A stretch of 64,000 nt of DNA from Undibacterium paludis (lineage in GTDB: Bacteria > Pseudomonadota > Gammaproteobacteria > Burkholderiales > Burkholderiaceae_D), in assembly GCF_022568815.1 (NCBI RefSeq), contig NZ_JAKZHX010000001.1, positions 310,001-374,000 on the forward strand. Reading direction: 5' to 3'. The first letter of the stretch is position 1. Each line of letters starts with the position of its first letter. The translations under genes were made by a program, and so were the position numbers. The notes below the pieces were generated by a model that did no database searches, had not been told where the DNA came from, and was given only the letters and a program-made list of their open reading frames with translations. This document shows, piece after piece, positions 19,059-58,880 of this stretch.

Positions 19059-23288
<4,230 letters not shown>

Positions 23289-23518
23289 GTGTATCACTCC
23301 AGTGAAGCGCGCAAACGCTTGGTGGCTCAATGGTGCTGCAACAGAAGCTTCGCCGCTTTACCCTGTTCGCATGAGCGGGAGAGCCAGGTCTTTTTGACGC
23401 AGGTTCCGCTGATACCGGGAACGACATTACTTCCAAACTGCTTGCCAGGTTTAACGGCCATCGCCCGGATGCTATCCGGGCGACGACTTTACTGCAATTA
23501 CATAGAACTAAACTTCTC
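23289..23518 (-). other. rpoB-rpoC intergenic region, non-coding part
   Basis: The gap between rpoB and rpoC totals 372 bp (23289-23660). This part holds no credible gene on either strand; it has a stable hairpin at 23461-23483 and the rpoC ribosome-binding site. The remainder is occupied by the palindromic repeat element at 23519-23661. No clear promoter for rpoC was seen. Confidence 0.6.
23461..23483 (-). other. Perfect 10-bp hairpin in rpoB-rpoC spacer
   Basis: TCGCCCGGAT (23461-23470) and ATCCGGGCGA (23474-23483) form a GC-rich stem with a three-base loop. No U-run follows on the minus strand, so it is not a standard terminator. It may stabilise or be a processing site in the rpoBC mRNA (inference). 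Confidence 0.6.
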
Positions 23519-23661
23519 AGAACCAGTTTCCGATCTTACTGCGCAAGCGTGATCGGGGCTCATGCGCTGCTCAAAATGCTCATGTACTTAAGTACATTCC
23601 GCTTTTTGCGCTGCTCTTCACCCCGCTGACGCCTGCTCGCTACAGATCGCCAACAGGTTCT
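23519..23661. repeat. Palindromic repeat element copy A (AGAACC family), between rpoB and rpoC
   Basis: This 143-bp element has inverted ends AGAACCAGTTTCCGATC (23519-23535) and, on the other strand, AGAACCTGTTGGCGATC (23645-23661), matching at 14 of 17 positions. Its exact centre is the perfect 16-bp palindrome ATGTACTTAAGTACAT (23582-23597), and the arms between are also partly complementary. The outer base of the right end is the last base of the rpoB TAA stop codon. Related copies lie at 37083 and 41701. There is no flanking target-site duplication. Confidence 0.8.
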
Positions 23662-26600
23662 TAGCTGCGTTCGAGATCGATATCGATACCCAAAGAGCGG
23701 ATTTCTTTTACCAGAACGTTGAAAGACTCTGGCATGCCGGCGTCGATCACGTGATCGCCCTTGACCAGGTTTTCATACACTTTGGTACGGCCATTCACGT
23801 CATCGGACTTGACTGTCAACATCTCTTGCAAGACGTAAGACGCGCCATAAGCTTCCAGTGCCCAAACCTCCATCTCACCGAAACGCTGACCACCGAACTG
23901 TGCTTTACCGCCCAGAGGTTGTTGCGTCACCAGAGAGTAAGGACCGGTCGAACGTGCATGCATCTTGTCGTCAACCAGATGATGCAATTTCAGCACGTGC
24001 ATGTAACCCAGGGTGACTTTACGCTCGAACGCCTCACCGGTACGGCCATCAAACAGGGTGACCTGGTTTTTCGATGGTGTCATGCCCAGTTGTTCTGCGA
24101 TATGGTCAGGGAAGGCCAGATCCAGCATGCGACGGATTTCGCTCTCATGCGCACCGTCAAACACGGGGGTTGCAAATGGCACACCGTTTTTCAGGTTGTT
24201 CGTCAACTCCAGGATTTCAGCATCTGTGAAGTTGTCGATGTCTTCCTTCTTGCCGGATTCGTTATAAATCTTCTTCAGGAATTCACGCAGTTCTTCTACC
24301 TTGGCCTTGGCTTTCAGCATTTCGCCTATGCGCAAGCCCAGACCTTTTGCTGCCCAGCCCAGATGCACTTCCAGAACCTGACCGACGTTCATACGTGATG
24401 GAACGCCCAATGGGTTCAACACGATGTCTGCCGGTGTACCGTCAGCCATGTAAGGCATGTCTTCGATAGGCACGATACGGGAAACCACACCCTTGTTACC
24501 GTGACGACCCGCCATCTTGTCACCAGGTTGCAGGCGACGTTTGACAGCCAGGTAAACCTTGACCATTTTTTGTACGCCTGGCGGCAATTCATCGCCTTGC
24601 GTCAGCTTGGTACGTTTTTCCTCAAAAGCCAGATCGAACTGATGACGTTTTTCAGCGATGGAATCTTTCATCGCGACCAGTGCATTGGCTGCTTCGTCCG
24701 ATGCCAGGCGAATGTCGAACCAGTGGTATTTATCCACGCTGGCCAGGTATTCCTTGGTGATCTTGCTGCCTTTAGCCAGTTTGGCCGGGCCGCCGTCAGC
24801 GATCTTGCCATCGAGCATACGTTCCAGACGCTCAAATGCATCGCCTTCAACGATACGCAACTGATCGTTCAGATCGAGGCGATAACGCTTCAATTCATCA
24901 TCGATAATCTGTTGCGCACGTTTGTCGCGTTGTATGCCTTCGCGGGTGAACACTTGTACGTCAATAACAGTACCTACCATGCCGGATGGCACACGCAGGG
25001 ATGTATCTTTCACGTCAGAAGCTTTTTCACCGAAGATGGCGCGCAGCAGTTTTTCTTCTGGTGTCAGTTGGGTTTCACCTTTTGGTGTCACTTTACCAAC
25101 CAGGGTATCACCGGCTGTAACTTCAGCGCCGATGTAGACGATACCGGACTCATCGAGACGCGCCAGCTGGTTTTCTGCCAGGTTGGAGATATCGCGGGTA
25201 ATTTCTTCCGCGCCCAACTTGGTGTCACGGGCAACAACCGACAACTCTTCGATATGGATCGAAGTATAGCGGTCATCCGCCACCACTTTTTCAGAGATCA
25301 GGATCGAATCTTCGAAGTTATAACCATTCCAAGGCATGAACGCGACAAGCATGTTCTGACCCAGGGCCAATTCACCCAGATCTGTGGATGCGCCGTCAGC
25401 CAATACGTCACCTTTGGCAACCAGATCACCAACTTTGACGATAGGACGCTGGTTGATGTTGGTGTTTTGGTTGGAACGGGTGTACTTGATGAGGTTGTAG
25501 ATATCCACACCGACTTCACCAGCCTGTGCTTCAGCATCATTCACACGAATAACGATACGGCCCGCATCAATATAGTCAACCTTACCGCCACGCAATGCCT
25601 GTACTGTTGTACCGGAGTCAACTGCTACGGTGCGTTCAATACCTGTACCAACGAAGGCTTTTTCTGGACGCAAGCAAGGAACAGCCTGACGTTGCATGTT
25701 GGCACCCATCAACGCACGGTTCGCATCATCGTGTTCGAGGAAGGGAATCAAGGATGCCGCAACAGAAACCACCTGCCCAGTCGCCACGTCCATGTACTGG
25801 ATACGTTCTGGAGAAACCAGAATCGTTTCGCCAGCTTCACGGGCAGAGACCAGTTCATCGATCAGTTTGCCTTCGCCGTCGATGGTCGCATTCGCCTGGG
25901 CGATGATGTAACGACCTTCTTCAATCGCAGACAGGTAATCGATCTGGTTGGTGATCTTGCTATCGACCACTTTACGGTAGGGTGTTTCCAGGAAACCGTA
26001 TTCGTTCAGGCGTGCATACAGCGCCAGAGAGTTGATCAGACCAATGTTCGGGCCTTCTGGAGTCTCAATCGGGCAGACGCGACCATAGTGGGTAGGATGA
26101 ACGTCGCGGACTTCAAAGCCTGCGCGCTCACGTGTCAAACCACCAGGTCCCAGGGCGGAAATACGACGCTTGTGCGTGATTTCTGACAATGGGTTGGTCT
26201 GATCCATAAACTGGGACAATTGTGAAGAACCGAAGAACTCACGAATCGCAGCAGAGATAGGCTTGGAGTTAATCAGGTCATGCGGCATCAGGTTGTCGGC
26301 TTCAGCCTGACCCAGACGCTCTTTGACTGCACGTTCAACACGGACCAGACCAGCACGGAACTGGTTCTCAGCCAGTTCACCAACGCAACGTACACGACGG
26401 TTACCCAAGTGATCGATATCATCAACTTCGCCACGACCATTGCGCAACTCAACCAGAATCTTGATCACAGCCAGCACGTCTTCGTTCGACAAAGTCATGG
26501 CGCCAGTCAGTTCATCACGACCAATGCGGCGGTTGAACTTCATGCGGCCCACTGCGGACAGGTCGTAACGCTCTTCACTGTAGAACAAGCCATTGAACAG

Positions 26601-27767
26601 GGCTTCAACAGAATCTTCTGTTGGCGGTTCGCCAGGACGCATCATGCGGTAGATGGCAACGCGGGCGGCCATCTGATCGGCGGTATCGTCCGTGCGCAAA
26701 GTCTGAGAAATGTAAGCACCCTGGTCCAGGTCATTGGTATACAGGGTCTGGATATCCGTGACCTTGGCGTCACGCAGACGGCCGAGCAACTCTTCAGTCA
26801 GTTCATCATTGGCATTGGCAATGATCTCGCCAGTGTCTGCATCAACGATGTTCTTGGCCAGGACGCGGCCCAGCAGGTAGTCTTCAGGCACGGAAATATG
26901 CTTGATGCCGCCAGCTTCGATTTCACGTACATGCTTGGCATTGACACGCTTGTCTTTGGCAACGATGACCTTGCCGGACTTGTCAGTAATGTCGAAACGC
27001 GCAACTTCGCCACGCAGGCGTTCTGCGACGAATTCCATCTCTGCACCTTCACTGTGCAGGTTGAAATTATCGAAAACAAAGAAGTTGGCCAGGATCTGTT
27101 CATTGCTCATGCCTATGGCGCGCAGCAAGATCGTTACCGGCATCTTGCGACGACGGTCGATACGGAAGAACAGGATATCCTTTGGATCAAATTCAAAGTC
27201 CAGCCAGGAGCCACGGTAAGGAATGATCCTTGCCGAGAACAGCAATTTACCGGAAGAATGCGTCTTGCCACGGTCATGTTCAAAGAATACGCCAGGGGAA
27301 CGATGCAACTGGGAAACAATGACCCGCTCAGTACCATTGATAACAAAAGAACCAGTCGTTGTCATCAAAGGCAATTCGCCCATGTAGACTTCTTGTTCTT
27401 TCATTTCTTTGACAACCGGCTTGGTCGGAGATTCTTTGTCCAGGATAACCAGGCGGACCTTTGCACGCAAAGGCGACGCATAAGTCAGGCCGCGCAGTTG
27501 ACATTCCTTGACGTCAAATGCAGGATCGCCTAAAACGTAGGACAGGAACTCCAGACGTGCAAAACCATTGTGCGAAACAATAGGGAAAATCGAGGTGAAG
27601 GCAGATTGCAGGCCTTCATTTTTACGTGTAGGCGGTGTTCTGTCTTCTTGTAAAAAGCTCTGGTACGACTCGATTTGAGTCGCCAGCAAGAACGGAACGT
27701 TGTGGACGTTGGCGCGTTTCGCAAAAGATTTACGAATACGCTTCTTCTCAGTAAATGAGTAGTGCAT
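23661..27767 (-). CDS. rpoB: DNA-directed RNA polymerase subunit beta
   Basis: The 1368-residue beta subunit carries the rifampicin-pocket region ([19 protein letters not shown], then [11 protein letters not shown]), the GRHGNKG motif near the active centre and the C-terminal [19 protein letters not shown] segment. The start [15 protein letters not shown] at 27765-27767 is preceded by GGAG; codons further upstream are not conserved in the family. The stop codon is embedded in the end of a palindromic repeat element. Confidence 0.98.
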
Positions 27768-27908
27768 GGACACTCCGTGAGTGGCAAGGAAGGATAGAGA
27801 ATTCAGGACTTTTGTCACGGATGCAATTTTTGTGACAAAAAACCTCAAGTCTCAACCCTCGGTCTTAATAAACAACTAAACAACCCTGAACGACAAAGAA
27901 GCCAAAGA

Positions 27909-34923: not shown

Positions 34924-35082
34924 CGCCCACGCTATAAATCAGCCAGAAATAAGATAAATAATTTACTTGCATCAATTTACCTAATTCAGTGTAGCAAGCT
35001 CACCTTTTATCAACCAGTAAAACATAGTCAAATAACACAGAATGCCGCTTCCCTCCCATATGCGTTATAATTCGCACTCACA

Positions 35083-35208
35083 TTCATTGGGGAGTAGCCC
35101 GCTTCGTCTACAGACGAAGAAAACGCATCAACATACTTGGCCATGCGGTCATGGTGCGTTTGGTTCAGGATTGGCAGAGCCAATATTCGATCGGGCAAGA
35201 CCTTTGAT
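35083..35208 (+). promoter_or_regulatory. yybP-ykoY manganese riboswitch
   Basis: The leader contains the family's landmark sequences: GGGGAGTAGCC at 35089-35099, ATCAACATACT near 35127-35137, and GGGCAAGACCTTTGA near 35193-35207. These form the Mn2+-binding junctions of the yybP-ykoY class. A TATAAT -10 box at 35066-35071 lies just upstream. The aptamer precedes a GDT1-family transporter gene by about 77 bp, matching known Mn2+-exporter control. Confidence 0.9.
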
Positions 35209-35284
35209 AGTTATGTTTCTGCTGACCAGGGATGGGGCGGGATATGACTGTCATTGGTTAATCAGCCTCATCCCGCATACTCAC

Positions 35285-35857
35285 ATGGAAGCTTTCTTCG
35301 TCTCTGCTGTCGCTATCACCGTCGGTGAAATTGGTGACAAAACTCAACTGCTCGCCTTGCTGCTGGCTGCTCGTTATAAAAAACCGGCGCCCATCATACT
35401 TGGTATTCTGATAGCAACATTGCTCAATCACGCTCTGGCTGCCTGGCTGGGGCAATTGGTCGCCGCACACCTTGACGGCCAGTTGTTACGCTATTTGCTG
35501 GCGGCTTCTTTTCTGGCAATTGCGGCCTGGACACTGAAGCCCGATGAAATGGAAGGTGATGGCATCAACGAAAGTCGCTACGGCGTTTTTTTGCTCACCT
35601 GTTTCACTTTTTTTCTGGCAGAAATCGGCGATAAAACCCAGTTGGCAACAGTCGCCCTGGCTGCAAAATATAACGATCTTGCCATGGTGGTCGCTGGCAC
35701 CACGCTGGGCATGCTGATTGCTGATGTACCGGCAGTATTCCTGGGCAAAATTGCGGCACCCAGCTTCCCTTTCAAGTACGTGCGCTGGTGTGCGGCGGCA
35801 CTATTTGCCGTCCTTGGCCTGCTGGTTTTATCGGGTGTGGAATTAAAGTTTATTTAA
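35285..35857 (+). CDS. GDT1/TMEM165 (UPF0016) family transporter, probable Mn2+ exporter
   Basis: The 190-residue membrane protein has two homologous halves, each with the family motif E-x-GDK: VGEIGDKTQLLALLL near the N-terminus and AEIGDKTQLATVAL in the second half, with about six hydrophobic segments. Bacterial members export Mn2+. The manganese riboswitch in its leader supports that role. An in-frame ATG far upstream (35042) lies before the riboswitch and is rejected; MEAFFVSAVAITVG at 35285 is the family N-terminus. Confidence 0.9.
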   Translation: MEAFFVSAVAITVGEIGDKTQLLALLLAARYKKPAPIILGILIATLLNHALAAWLGQLVAAHLDGQLLRYLLAASFLAIAAWTLKPDEMEGDGINESRYGVFLLTCFTFFLAEIGDKTQLATVALAAKYNDLAMVVAGTTLGMLIADVPAVFLGKIAAPSFPFKYVRWCAAALFAVLGLLVLSGVELKFI

Positions 35858-36280: not shown

Positions 36281-37084
36281 ATGTCAGAATTTAAACTTGC
36301 CGCTGGCAGCCATATCAAATTCGGCTGTATCTCCAGCCAGCTTTACCCCATCCTGCGCCAGGGTTTGGCACAAGACATACCGCGCCAGGGCTTTGAAGAA
36401 GAAAGCAAGTTACCCGCAAAAGGCATCATGGTCGGCGAGCTGATGGCGTATTTTTCTGCCTGTGCCGCCTTTTGCAAAGCAACCAGCAGCCTGCACCAGG
36501 AACACCAGCAAGTGCTGGCAGAATTCGTCAACGCCCTGCAAACCCAGTTGGGCGAAAAACCGCAAATGCCGGAACTGGAAAGCATTGCCGTAGCGGCCGG
36601 TTTGCCAGTGATACTCGAGATTGAACTGGCAGAAGATTGCACACTGCTTGCTGACAGCCACTTTGTCACTGACAGCGAGGCCGAAAAAAGCTGGAAGCTG
36701 TGGCGTAGCGGCGCTCTGCTACGCGAAGGTGGTATACCGGCATCCTGGATCAAGAAATTCTATTTCCCGCGCTTGCTTGATTATCGAGATGTCAGCAATT
36801 CCAGAAGCCAGCGCTCACTGGAGCAAACCACTGATACGGCACTGATGGTCGGTGGCCTCATGCAATCCTGGCACAAGGACACACCTGCCGACCTGCTGCA
36901 TGCCTTCCGCAAGCAATATGGCAGAATCAATTTCTCCCAGCACAGCAGTTTTGATGAAACTGCGCTTGAACGTTTCTTCAATCTGAATCCCATGCTGGAT
37001 CCGGCCACTCGCCTGCTCAATCAAATGACGATATGGCAAGATATTGACGCCCTGGCCAAGAAGCAGCAGATACCACTGACTTAG
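36281..37084 (+). CDS. Hypothetical protein co-transcribed with arsC
   Basis: The 267-residue soluble protein has no signal peptide or membrane segment and no motif I recognise. Features seen: KFGCISSQLYPILRQGLAQD near the start, and a central acidic part (LEIELAEDCTLLADS) before SWKLWRSGALLREGGIPASW. It starts six bases after arsC, so the two are probably co-expressed. Its TAG stop codon overlaps the left end of palindromic repeat copy B. Confidence 0.65.
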   Translation: MSEFKLAAGSHIKFGCISSQLYPILRQGLAQDIPRQGFEEESKLPAKGIMVGELMAYFSACAAFCKATSSLHQEHQQVLAEFVNALQTQLGEKPQMPELESIAVAAGLPVILEIELAEDCTLLADSHFVTDSEAEKSWKLWRSGALLREGGIPASWIKKFYFPRLLDYRDVSNSRSQRSLEQTTDTALMVGGLMQSWHKDTPADLLHAFRKQYGRINFSQHSSFDETALERFFNLNPMLDPATRLLNQMTIWQDIDALAKKQQIPLT

Positions 37085-37208
37085 AACCTGTTGACGCTCT
37101 TACTGCGTTGGAGTGATCGTGGTTCATGCACAGCTCAACATTTATGTTACCCCGAATGTTACCTTGCCACCACTGACGCAAGTTGGCGACAGGTCATGAA
37201 CAGGTTAT
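37083..37208. repeat. Palindromic repeat element copy B (AGAACC family)
   Basis: About 126 bp bounded by AGAACCTGTT (37083-37092) and AACAGGTTAT (37199-37208). Inside, TCTTACTGCG, TTCATGCACAGCTCAACA and CTGACGC line up with copies A and C, but the central palindrome is lost, so this copy looks decayed. The left end overlaps the TAG stop of the preceding gene. Confidence 0.65.
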
Positions 37209-41700: not shown

Positions 41701-41857
41701 AGAACCTGTTTGCGATCTTACTGTAGTTGCGTAGCCGGGTTTACACGGCGCTCATGCGCTGCTCAACATGCTCATGTACTCAATTCCAGCTTTCAGGCTG
41801 CATTTTATGCGGTCCTGACAAAGTTGACGCACGCTCGCTACAAATTAAACAGGTTCT
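41701..41857. repeat. Palindromic repeat element copy C (AGAACC family)
   Basis: About 157 bp with perfect 11-bp inverted ends AGAACCTGTTT (41701-41711) and AAACAGGTTCT (41847-41857). The left part, GCGATCTTACTG and CTCATGCGCTGCTCAA, closely follows copy A; the central palindrome is reduced to ATGCTCATGTACT. It lies between the start of the DUF2905 gene and the end of the methyltransferase gene. There are no flanking direct repeats. Confidence 0.75.
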
Positions 41858-57882: not shown

Positions 57883-57975
57883 GTGTGGCGAGCGACGCCA
57901 GTTTGAGACAGGACACGCAGTCGTACTGTAAGTACGACGAACATCGCAGGCTCAAAACCGCGCCGCGCAGCAACT
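57883..57975. repeat. Palindromic intergenic element E between pirin and doxX
   Basis: The centre is GTCGTACT (57920-57927), a three-base spacer, and AGTACGAC (57931-57938), and the flanking arms are partly complementary (GCGACGCC...TTTGAG against GCGGCGCG...TTTTGAG). It begins at the pirin stop codon. The layout is like copy A (long palindrome centred on a GTACT/AGTAC core), but the AGAACC ends are absent, so this is a related or second family. Confidence 0.6.
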
Positions 57976-58880
57976 CAATCAGCACTCACCAGCTTGCCTT
58001 CACGAAAATCGCTGATGGCCTTGAATATCTCTGCCTGGCTATTCATGACAAAGGGCCCGTACTGGACGATGGTTTCATTCAGGGGTTGACCGGCAATCAG
58101 CAGCAACCTGCTGTCTTTTACTGCATTGATGAACACACCATCGGCATCTGAGGCTTTTTTCAAGATCGCCATTCTCTGCTCCGGCACGGCACGTTCTGCA
58201 ATCTGCACCTCACCCTCATAGACATAGGTGAAAGCATTCATGCTGGATGCCAGTTGCTGCGAGAAACTGCTGCCCGCCGGCATATGTACGTCCAGATACA
58301 GCGGTTCAGTCACCTGGCGCTGCACCGCACCGTCCACGCCATGACTGTGGCCAGCAATCACACGAACCTTGACGCCGGCATCAGTCACAAACTCGGGTAT
58401 GGACTCGCTTTGTATATCGCGGTACCAGGGTTCTGTCATCTTGTCTTTGGCCGGCAGGTTCAGCCACAGCTGGAAACCTGCCATACGGCCTTCCTGTTGC
58501 TCGGGCATTTCGGAATGGATCACACCACGTCCGGCTGTCATCCATTGCACACCACCGTTTTGCAGCAAACCTTCGTTACCGGCACTGTCACGATGACGCA
58601 TGCGGCCTGCCAGCATATAAGTGATGGTTTCAAAGCCACGATGCGGATGGCTGGGGAAGCCGGCAATATAATCACTGGCCTCATCACTGCCAAAAGCATC
58701 AAGCATGAGAAAAGGGTCCAGCCGGTATTGCAGTGGCTGCGTCAATACCCGCGTCAGCTTGACACCGGCACCGTCTGAAGTTGGCTGCCCTGCCACCAAT
58801 TGCTCGACGACTCGTGATTGTGTGACGCTGTCAGTTGCCTGCGTCTGGACTTGAAGCAAAACTGTGTCTGTGGTTTCCAT
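57975..58880 (-). CDS. Pirin-family cupin protein
   Basis: The 301-residue protein is a bicupin of the pirin/YhhW family: FLMLDAFGSDEASDYIAGFP, FPSHPHRGFETITYMLAGRM and GLLQNGGVQWMTAGRGVIHSE carry the metal-binding histidines and glutamate. Some pirins have quercetinase activity; others bind protein partners. ATG 58878-58880 is preferred over ATG 58887-58889. It is immediately upstream of doxX and follows azoR, 37 bp apart. Confidence 0.88.
   Translation of the reverse strand: METTDTVLLQVQTQATDSVTQSRVVEQLVAGQPTSDGAGVKLTRVLTQPLQYRLDPFLMLDAFGSDEASDYIAGFPSHPHRGFETITYMLAGRMRHRDSAGNEGLLQNGGVQWMTAGRGVIHSEMPEQQEGRMAGFQLWLNLPAKDKMTEPWYRDIQSESIPEFVTDAGVKVRVIAGHSHGVDGAVQRQVTEPLYLDVHMPAGSSFSQQLASSMNAFTYVYEGEVQIAERAVPEQRMAILKKASDADGVFINAVKDSRLLLIAGQPLNETIVQYGPFVMNSQAEIFKAISDFREGKLVSAD

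Follow-up and report, generated by a model that had tools for sequence, protein, structure and literature searches.

The window, i.e. the whole 64,000-nucleotide stretch of Undibacterium paludis DNA that was analysed, carries rpoB (23661-27848; TIGR02013, start codon putative) and rpoC (19059-23288; TIGR02386, ATG from 23288) on the minus strand. The gap between them is 372 nt, as given in an earlier reading of the bare sequence, here called the original prediction. Read on the minus strand, rpoB is followed by its TAA stop codon (23663-23661), a palindromic element running from GAACCTGTTGGCGATC to GATCGGAAACTGGTTC, a TGA triplet (23519-23517), GAAGTTTAG, a hairpin, a conserved RNA and the rpoC ATG.

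The limits of the element (23520-23660, 141 bp, minus strand) were set by aligned copies from the same genome and from relatives, by the ends of these copies and by an empty site. The original prediction of a 143-bp palindrome was therefore right about the existence of the element, but each of its limits was one base off. The ends of the element are GAACCTGTTnnCGATC, and its 17-bp terminal stretches pair by eye at 14 of 17 positions, as had been claimed. When the element is aligned with its own reverse complement, 104 of 144 columns are identical (72%) compared to a maximum of 57% in 200 letter shuffles; in other words, the arms are indeed partly complementary. The 16-bp palindrome ATGTACTTAAGTACAT is present at 23582-23597, but by eye it is central only to within half a base, not exactly. 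The minus-strand RNA of the element is predicted to fold strongly (-65 kcal/mol, z -6.9), and none of 200 shuffles folded as well. No terminator-like or promoter-like sites were found in 23250-23720, and an intrinsic terminator (GC stem, then T run) was rejected as a candidate, with no instance in the same interval. That the foldable repeat might alter the expression of rpoC or the stability or processing of the RNA, as the original prediction suggested, is a possibility.

The element belongs to a multi-copy family. A search of its own genome (G000) with a 161-bp query gave 46 matches at E<=10, including self-matches of the palindrome on the other strand and fragments, and the best other copies are 92-93% identical over most of the query. 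At E<=0.001, five of 41 sampled genomes match, i.e. the window's own, G004 and G019 strongly, G013 and G028 weakly; G275, G310 and G320 have 36, 18 and 7 matches at E<=1e-5. Counted from the rpoB stop, the first 350 nt of G019 equal those of U. umbellatum (L116), the first 350 nt of G275 those of U. pigrum (L115) and the first 240 nt of G004 those of U. hunanense (L136). Paired ends were sought in 107 loci of G000, G004 and G019, which are part of the places listed by the pattern, so the copy totals are at least those of the strict set. This set (at most 4 end mismatches in total, length 90-200 bp, plus two longer copies) holds 78 copies from these three genomes of the genus, among them at least 23 from the window's genome.

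The strict copies have terminal inverted repeats (TIRs) in common. Identical 3-bp target-site duplications (TSDs) flank 48 of the 78, as against 2-4 in controls with shifted positions, and the flanks of the other 30 are non-identical. The flanking triplet is TNA at 129 of 156 flanks, with CTNAG as the preferred context. Dispersed copies, TSDs at the level of the family and the empty site of a relative identify the element, as judged from sequence, as a non-autonomous transposon (MITE) with predicted mobility. Two further copies lie in the window. One (37084-37207, plus strand) completes with its first base the TAG stop of a gene at 36281-37084 that has no match in Pfam or NCBIfam; the other (41702-41856, minus strand), recognised by the family search and its ends, is diverged. 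Separately from these copies, a yybP-ykoY manganese riboswitch (68.6 bits) is found at 35077-35204 on the plus strand and overlaps the listed start of the reading frame 35042-35857, the true start of which is probably further downstream.

REP/BIME repeats are palindromes of 20-40 nt that lack TSDs and are moved by a REP-associated transposase (RAYT); TIRs, TSDs and IS5-like ends are not known as REP features. Our element resembles them in the GTAG within its arms, and a half copy in another locus (L028, 1501-1700) lies beside a degraded reading frame that, judging by its motif, is presumably RAYT-like. However, a length of 141 bp is excessive for such a repeat, and further arguments against it are the TIRs, the TSDs of 3 bp and the existence of IS5-type elements whose ends are similar. 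We have rejected this assignment on account of the length and the TSDs, and regard it as highly improbable.

The left TSD of the rpoB copy is the stop codon of rpoB itself (TAA, 23661-23663, minus strand), as judged from the ends of the copies and the empty site. The right TSD, placed by the ends of the copies, is TGA (23517-23519, minus strand), which differs in its middle base, i.e. the two are alike at 2 of 3 bases. The empty site is found in G310, a close relative from the same genus with a 6.7-Mb genome: here rpoB is followed by GTTAAGAAGTTTAG, where the window has GCTAA-[141 bp]-TGAGAAGTTTAG, and it is because this site shows TAA as the target that the stop codon can be read as the left duplication. 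The stop codon had been thought to share its last base with the element; in fact there is no overlap, and the two are flush. We conclude that the MITE, to all appearances of the aligned sequences, landed on the rpoB stop codon and that the duplicated TNA target preserved the stop.

The spacers of relatives tell the same story. Spacer starts, 420 nt long and counted from the rpoB stop, were obtained from 116 of 123 loci (7 gave none, and several genomes are represented twice). BLAST found the element in only two of the 116, both of them the window's own place, and gave no match in the other 114. One could suppose instead that the palindrome is native to the rpoBC operon, either a conserved leader or a regulatory hairpin, which its good fold and its location in the spacer would allow. 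Against this stand the 114 spacer starts without a match, the many copies elsewhere and the empty site in G310; the copies and the empty site led us to reject the idea, and we give it practically no credence. The inserted element that had been proposed is thus supported by other copies, TIRs, TSDs, its absence from other spacers and the empty site; BLASTN against the genome and its relatives gave many copies elsewhere, and neither a leader conserved in all relatives nor a lack of further genomic copies was seen. Two points go beyond the original prediction: the stop codon is the target duplication, and a conserved RNA lies about 90 nt downstream of the element.

The family shares with the bacterial MITEs Correia/NEMIS, Chunjie, QMITE and RUP, as far as they are described in the accessible part of a review (PMC10969869), the short length, the lack of a transposase, TIRs, TSDs, many copies and a strong RNA hairpin. 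It differs from them in the TNA target and in the location of 41 of 101 sites on stop codons; the term 'stop codon' does not occur in the accessible part of that review. Insertion of Chunjie into an operon without disturbance is indicated by a title cited there, and the accessible parts of two other papers report a QMITE2 copy at the 3' end of enhC in Coxiella (PMC5896051) and a MITEAba12 fused to the 3' end of a gene (PMC6382973). We found no name for the sequence family of our MITE.

There is also a partial likeness to sX9 (RF02228), an sRNA of Xanthomonas that ranks, in the part of the source available, among the most abundant sRNA families in bacteria (PMC9029176). The plus strand of the element aligns with this model end to end at 23582-23655 (32.6 bits, E 3e-4), and two of eight further loci scanned match it with 35.9 and 30.6 bits. 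All these matches lie under the gathering score of 44, so membership in sX9 is not indicated, and three copies from the window's own genome (L002, L004, L008) have no sX9 match at E<=1. Conversely, some sX9 annotations may be MITE sequence.

A possible source of the transposase is suggested by elements of the IS5 family, in which the subgroups IS1031/ISL2 use TNA targets. The end GAACCTGTTCGAGATCTT of a longer element was found at three contig ends of G019, three places of G275 and nine places of G310. By their end pattern, two of six G310 loci examined are a complete IS of 872 bp with GAACCTGTTCGAGATCTT as TIR, and their TSDs are TTA/TTA and TAA/TAA. This IS has two frames, OrfA with DUF4096 (PF13340) and OrfB with DDE_Tnp_1 (PF01609), and its transposase scores 142.3 bits with NF033580 (cut-off 110), which places it in the IS5 family. 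The likeness to our MITE consists of the TNA duplications and the ends: over its first 17 bases, the rpoB copy agrees with each of the two IS ends at 15 positions. The difference is that the similarity of the MITE to the G310 IS stops at these ends, beyond which no alignment is better than E 0.17, and that this IS was not found in the genome of the MITE. A 125-base IS end has no match in G000 or G004, so we infer, rather than observe, that such an IS mobilised the rpoB copy. The IS interior was not found in the contigs of G019. An IS5 copy in the window's own genome (at C5, the single DDE_Tnp_1 match of G000) was rejected as a partner, having other ends by eye. In one G310 locus (L297, near 1499) an IS end is flush with or inside a MITE copy, its flank CGCAGTAA being as inside the MITE.

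The distribution of the family over stop codons was compared with simulated expectations. A copy was counted as stop-sited if the TNA itself is the stop codon, or if the last two target bases plus the first base of the element form it; the genes are predictions of a codon-usage caller made for this analysis. In the weighted null, insertion is allowed equally at all noncoding and stop sites within 400 bp, which are weighted by the target preference. In the three genomes 32 of 76 sites (the 78 copies minus two shared insertions) are on a stop codon. The expectations are 20.2 for the weighted and 18.1 for the unweighted noncoding null, and 4.0 if all sites are open; only one of 200000 simulations of the weighted null was as high. 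The second set was drawn from 40 stretches among the better matches of G310, G320 and G275, from which 33 copies were kept (none from G320), 7 of them at sites shared with the first set. Here 11 of 33 are stop-sited, with 7.2 (weighted), 8.1 (unweighted) and 0.9 (all open) expected and 2818 and 8084 of 100000 simulations as high under the weighted and unweighted nulls, respectively. When the sets were merged by similarity of the flanks, 41 of 101 sites were on the stop codon of a gene, as against 25.2, 23.1 and 4.8, and none of 100000 simulations was as high under each null; a weakly similar pair (L014/L240) is merged in the count of 76 and separate in that of 101. An earlier run, in which crude reading frames filled the intergenic space, gave 28 of 76 with 21.4 expected and 1746 of 200000 simulations as high.

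The positions are sharply defined, i.e. offset 0 from the stop holds 32 copies and offset -1 holds 11, while no other offset from -12 to 60 holds more than 2. Counted over 100 sites, the gene faced is in tandem for 24 of the 41 stop-sited copies, convergent for 15 and unknown for 2. The end that faces the stop is GATCTT in 31, GATCTG in 9 and another sequence in 1 (binomial p 0.0007 for 31/40). The rpoB copy is a member of the rarer orientation class.

For the most part, the excess at stop codons is what a TNA element gives in a compact genome under selection: TNA holds TAA and TGA, and a TAG is restored by the G with which the element starts, therefore survivors at stops are expected. A 1.6-fold rest remains. 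It could be taken to mean an active choice by the transposase of stop codons, or of something associated with them, over TNA at large, and both the merged count, which no simulation reached, and the two conspicuous offsets would fit such a preference. Yet the excess over the noncoding null is just 1.6-fold, the second set is weak by itself and shares sites with the first, and the cruder gene caller gave a smaller difference. Moreover, selection against insertions into promoters, which is outside the null, would push the expectation higher. We thus consider an active preference unlikely. Our literature search, which included PMC6337395 and PMC2229807 as far as accessible and had subscription papers mostly outside its scope, found no report of a stop-codon preference of MITEs or of an RNA between rpoB and rpoC.

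The place behind rpoB is occupied by other palindromes as well. In G019 and G275 a different palindrome lies at most about 10 nt behind the rpoB stop, with ends GGAGnATCTGA and a core that is similar by eye, and this second family is also multi-copy, each of six genomes giving 7-13 matches. The stretch directly behind rpoB looks like a tolerated landing site. A member of the second family is also found in the window at 57885-57982 on the plus strand (78% identity over query positions 20-116), and the spacer of G009 carries a third, unrelated palindrome of about 140 bp by eye (L078, 1828-2231; also L141).

The presence of two families at one place bears on the question of whether the hairpin has been co-opted, i.e. 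kept by selection for a role in processing, stabilisation or attenuation between rpoB and rpoC. The strong fold on the transcript strand and the RNase III cleavage of Correia MITE transcripts, reported in the accessible part of the review (PMC10969869), are further points in favour of this. On the other hand, the element is absent from G310 and from the other extracted spacers, there is no terminator-like site, and two families at one place may merely mark a tolerated spot. Co-option therefore seems to us rather doubtful, and the MITE is most likely a tolerated passenger, the hairpin of which may, by analogy with the Correia elements, be an RNase III site.

Structured leader RNAs are known in ribosomal and RNA polymerase operons, the L10 leader being an example. 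The RNA downstream of the MITE (23355-23427, minus strand, 73 nt; 79.4 bits with our model R2) resembles the L10-type leaders in being a covarying spacer RNA of the same operon, but it lies between rpoB and rpoC, and a search at E<=5 gave no Rfam covariance-model match for 23355-23427. In the window some 66 nt separate the end of this RNA from the rpoC start codon, and it was left intact by the MITE. A hairpin lies upstream of it (23457-23487, minus strand), with changes on both sides in 4 of 10 pairs and 94.7% of the cells paired in 19 sequences of the genus.

The spacer motifs CCCGGTA and CTCTCCCG occur in 20 of 21 genomes of the genus with an rpoB match, and are absent from G011 and from nine loci of nine other families. 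The pattern CTCTCCCGNNNNTGCGAACAGGG was found in 71 stretches of the contig collection, 69 of which adjoin rpoB or rpoC and span Undibacterium, Herbaspirillum, Noviherbaspirillum, Herminiimonas, Oxalicibacterium, Paucimonas, Sapientia, Solimicrobium, Keguizhuia and unnamed Burkholderiales/Oxalobacteraceae; the remaining two have no CCCGGTA upstream and were set aside as looking like chance. With filters stricter than usual, at which weak matches may be lost, model R2 gave one match per genome in 83 of 294 genomes of the family (12 of 44 genera, all E < 2e-9) and matched 4 of 300 genomes of the order, all four from the same family. The scores among the matches listed range from 60 to 80.3 bits, and neither G011 nor G320 has an R2 match. 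The spacer of G011 is 98 nt long and has an inverted repeat in place of the spacer RNA (L085, 1388-1497).

The structure was examined in 60 distinct cores (69 rpoBC loci, the window and three relatives, identical ones counted once). In helix P2, if one bulge is allowed in rows with an insertion, the four variable pairs form 3.45 times out of 4 on average, as against 2.65 with shuffled partners (0 of 2000 shuffles as good), and 53 cells are doubly changed versus 19.5 (0 of 500); these shuffles ignore relatedness. Counted by pairs, the double changes (4 versus 3.8) do not differ noticeably from the shuffled level. If the partners are slid by 1-3 columns, pairing falls from 84% to 32-50%, and P2 is present in the single-sequence folds of 55 of the 60 cores. 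Helix P1 as drawn pairs in 77% of cells, with a shifted pairing in Herbaspirillum by eye, and P3 is variable in length and sequence but beats the shuffled mean fold in 56 of 60. On alignment A3, RNAalifold favours two short hairpins without covariation, which may be an alternative structure or a loop-loop form of P2. Two structures tried on alignment A2 (19 of 20 genus spacers, since L088 equals L086) score about alike because they share helices. Most likely, the spacer RNA would act in cis on rpoC, i.e. on translation or mRNA processing.

To return to the MITE, we hold it very probable that an IS5-type MITE with a TNA target was inserted at the TAA stop codon of rpoB by a transposase of the G310 kind, that it was tolerated and that its effect on the mRNA is at most mild. 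The transposase would have cut at the TNA formed by the stop codon, and the 141-bp palindrome would have been inserted with duplication of the TAA. The left TAA still terminates rpoB, and the right copy is now TGA, presumably by a later mutation. Since rpoB, rpoC and the conserved spacer RNA all stayed whole, the insertion was presumably tolerated inside an essential operon. The transcript now has a strong predicted hairpin right after rpoB, the effect of which could be a site for RNase III cleavage or a protection of the rpoB 3' end, with no intrinsic termination expected.

A broader reading is put forward tentatively, at somewhat short of an even chance. According to this, Undibacterium, Herbaspirillum, Herminiimonas, Noviherbaspirillum and their kin would have in the spacer between rpoB and rpoC a cis-acting RNA so far undescribed, present once in each genome, by which the synthesis of beta-prime is set relative to beta; MITEs able to land on or just behind stop codons would repeatedly settle upstream of it because their entry breaks neither gene nor RNA. 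The spacer RNA is more novel than the MITE.

The locus shows how an essential operon can take up a transposable element and stay unbroken: a TNA target together with an element that starts with G rebuilds TAA, TGA or TAG, therefore stop codons are safe landing sites. It also raises the question of whether some of the widespread sX9 sRNA annotations are in fact MITE sequence. Furthermore, it exposes a conserved, covarying RNA within one of the most studied operons, and the empty, first-family and second-family alleles upstream of this same RNA are a natural experiment that bears on how the structure of the spacer relates to the beta:beta-prime ratio.
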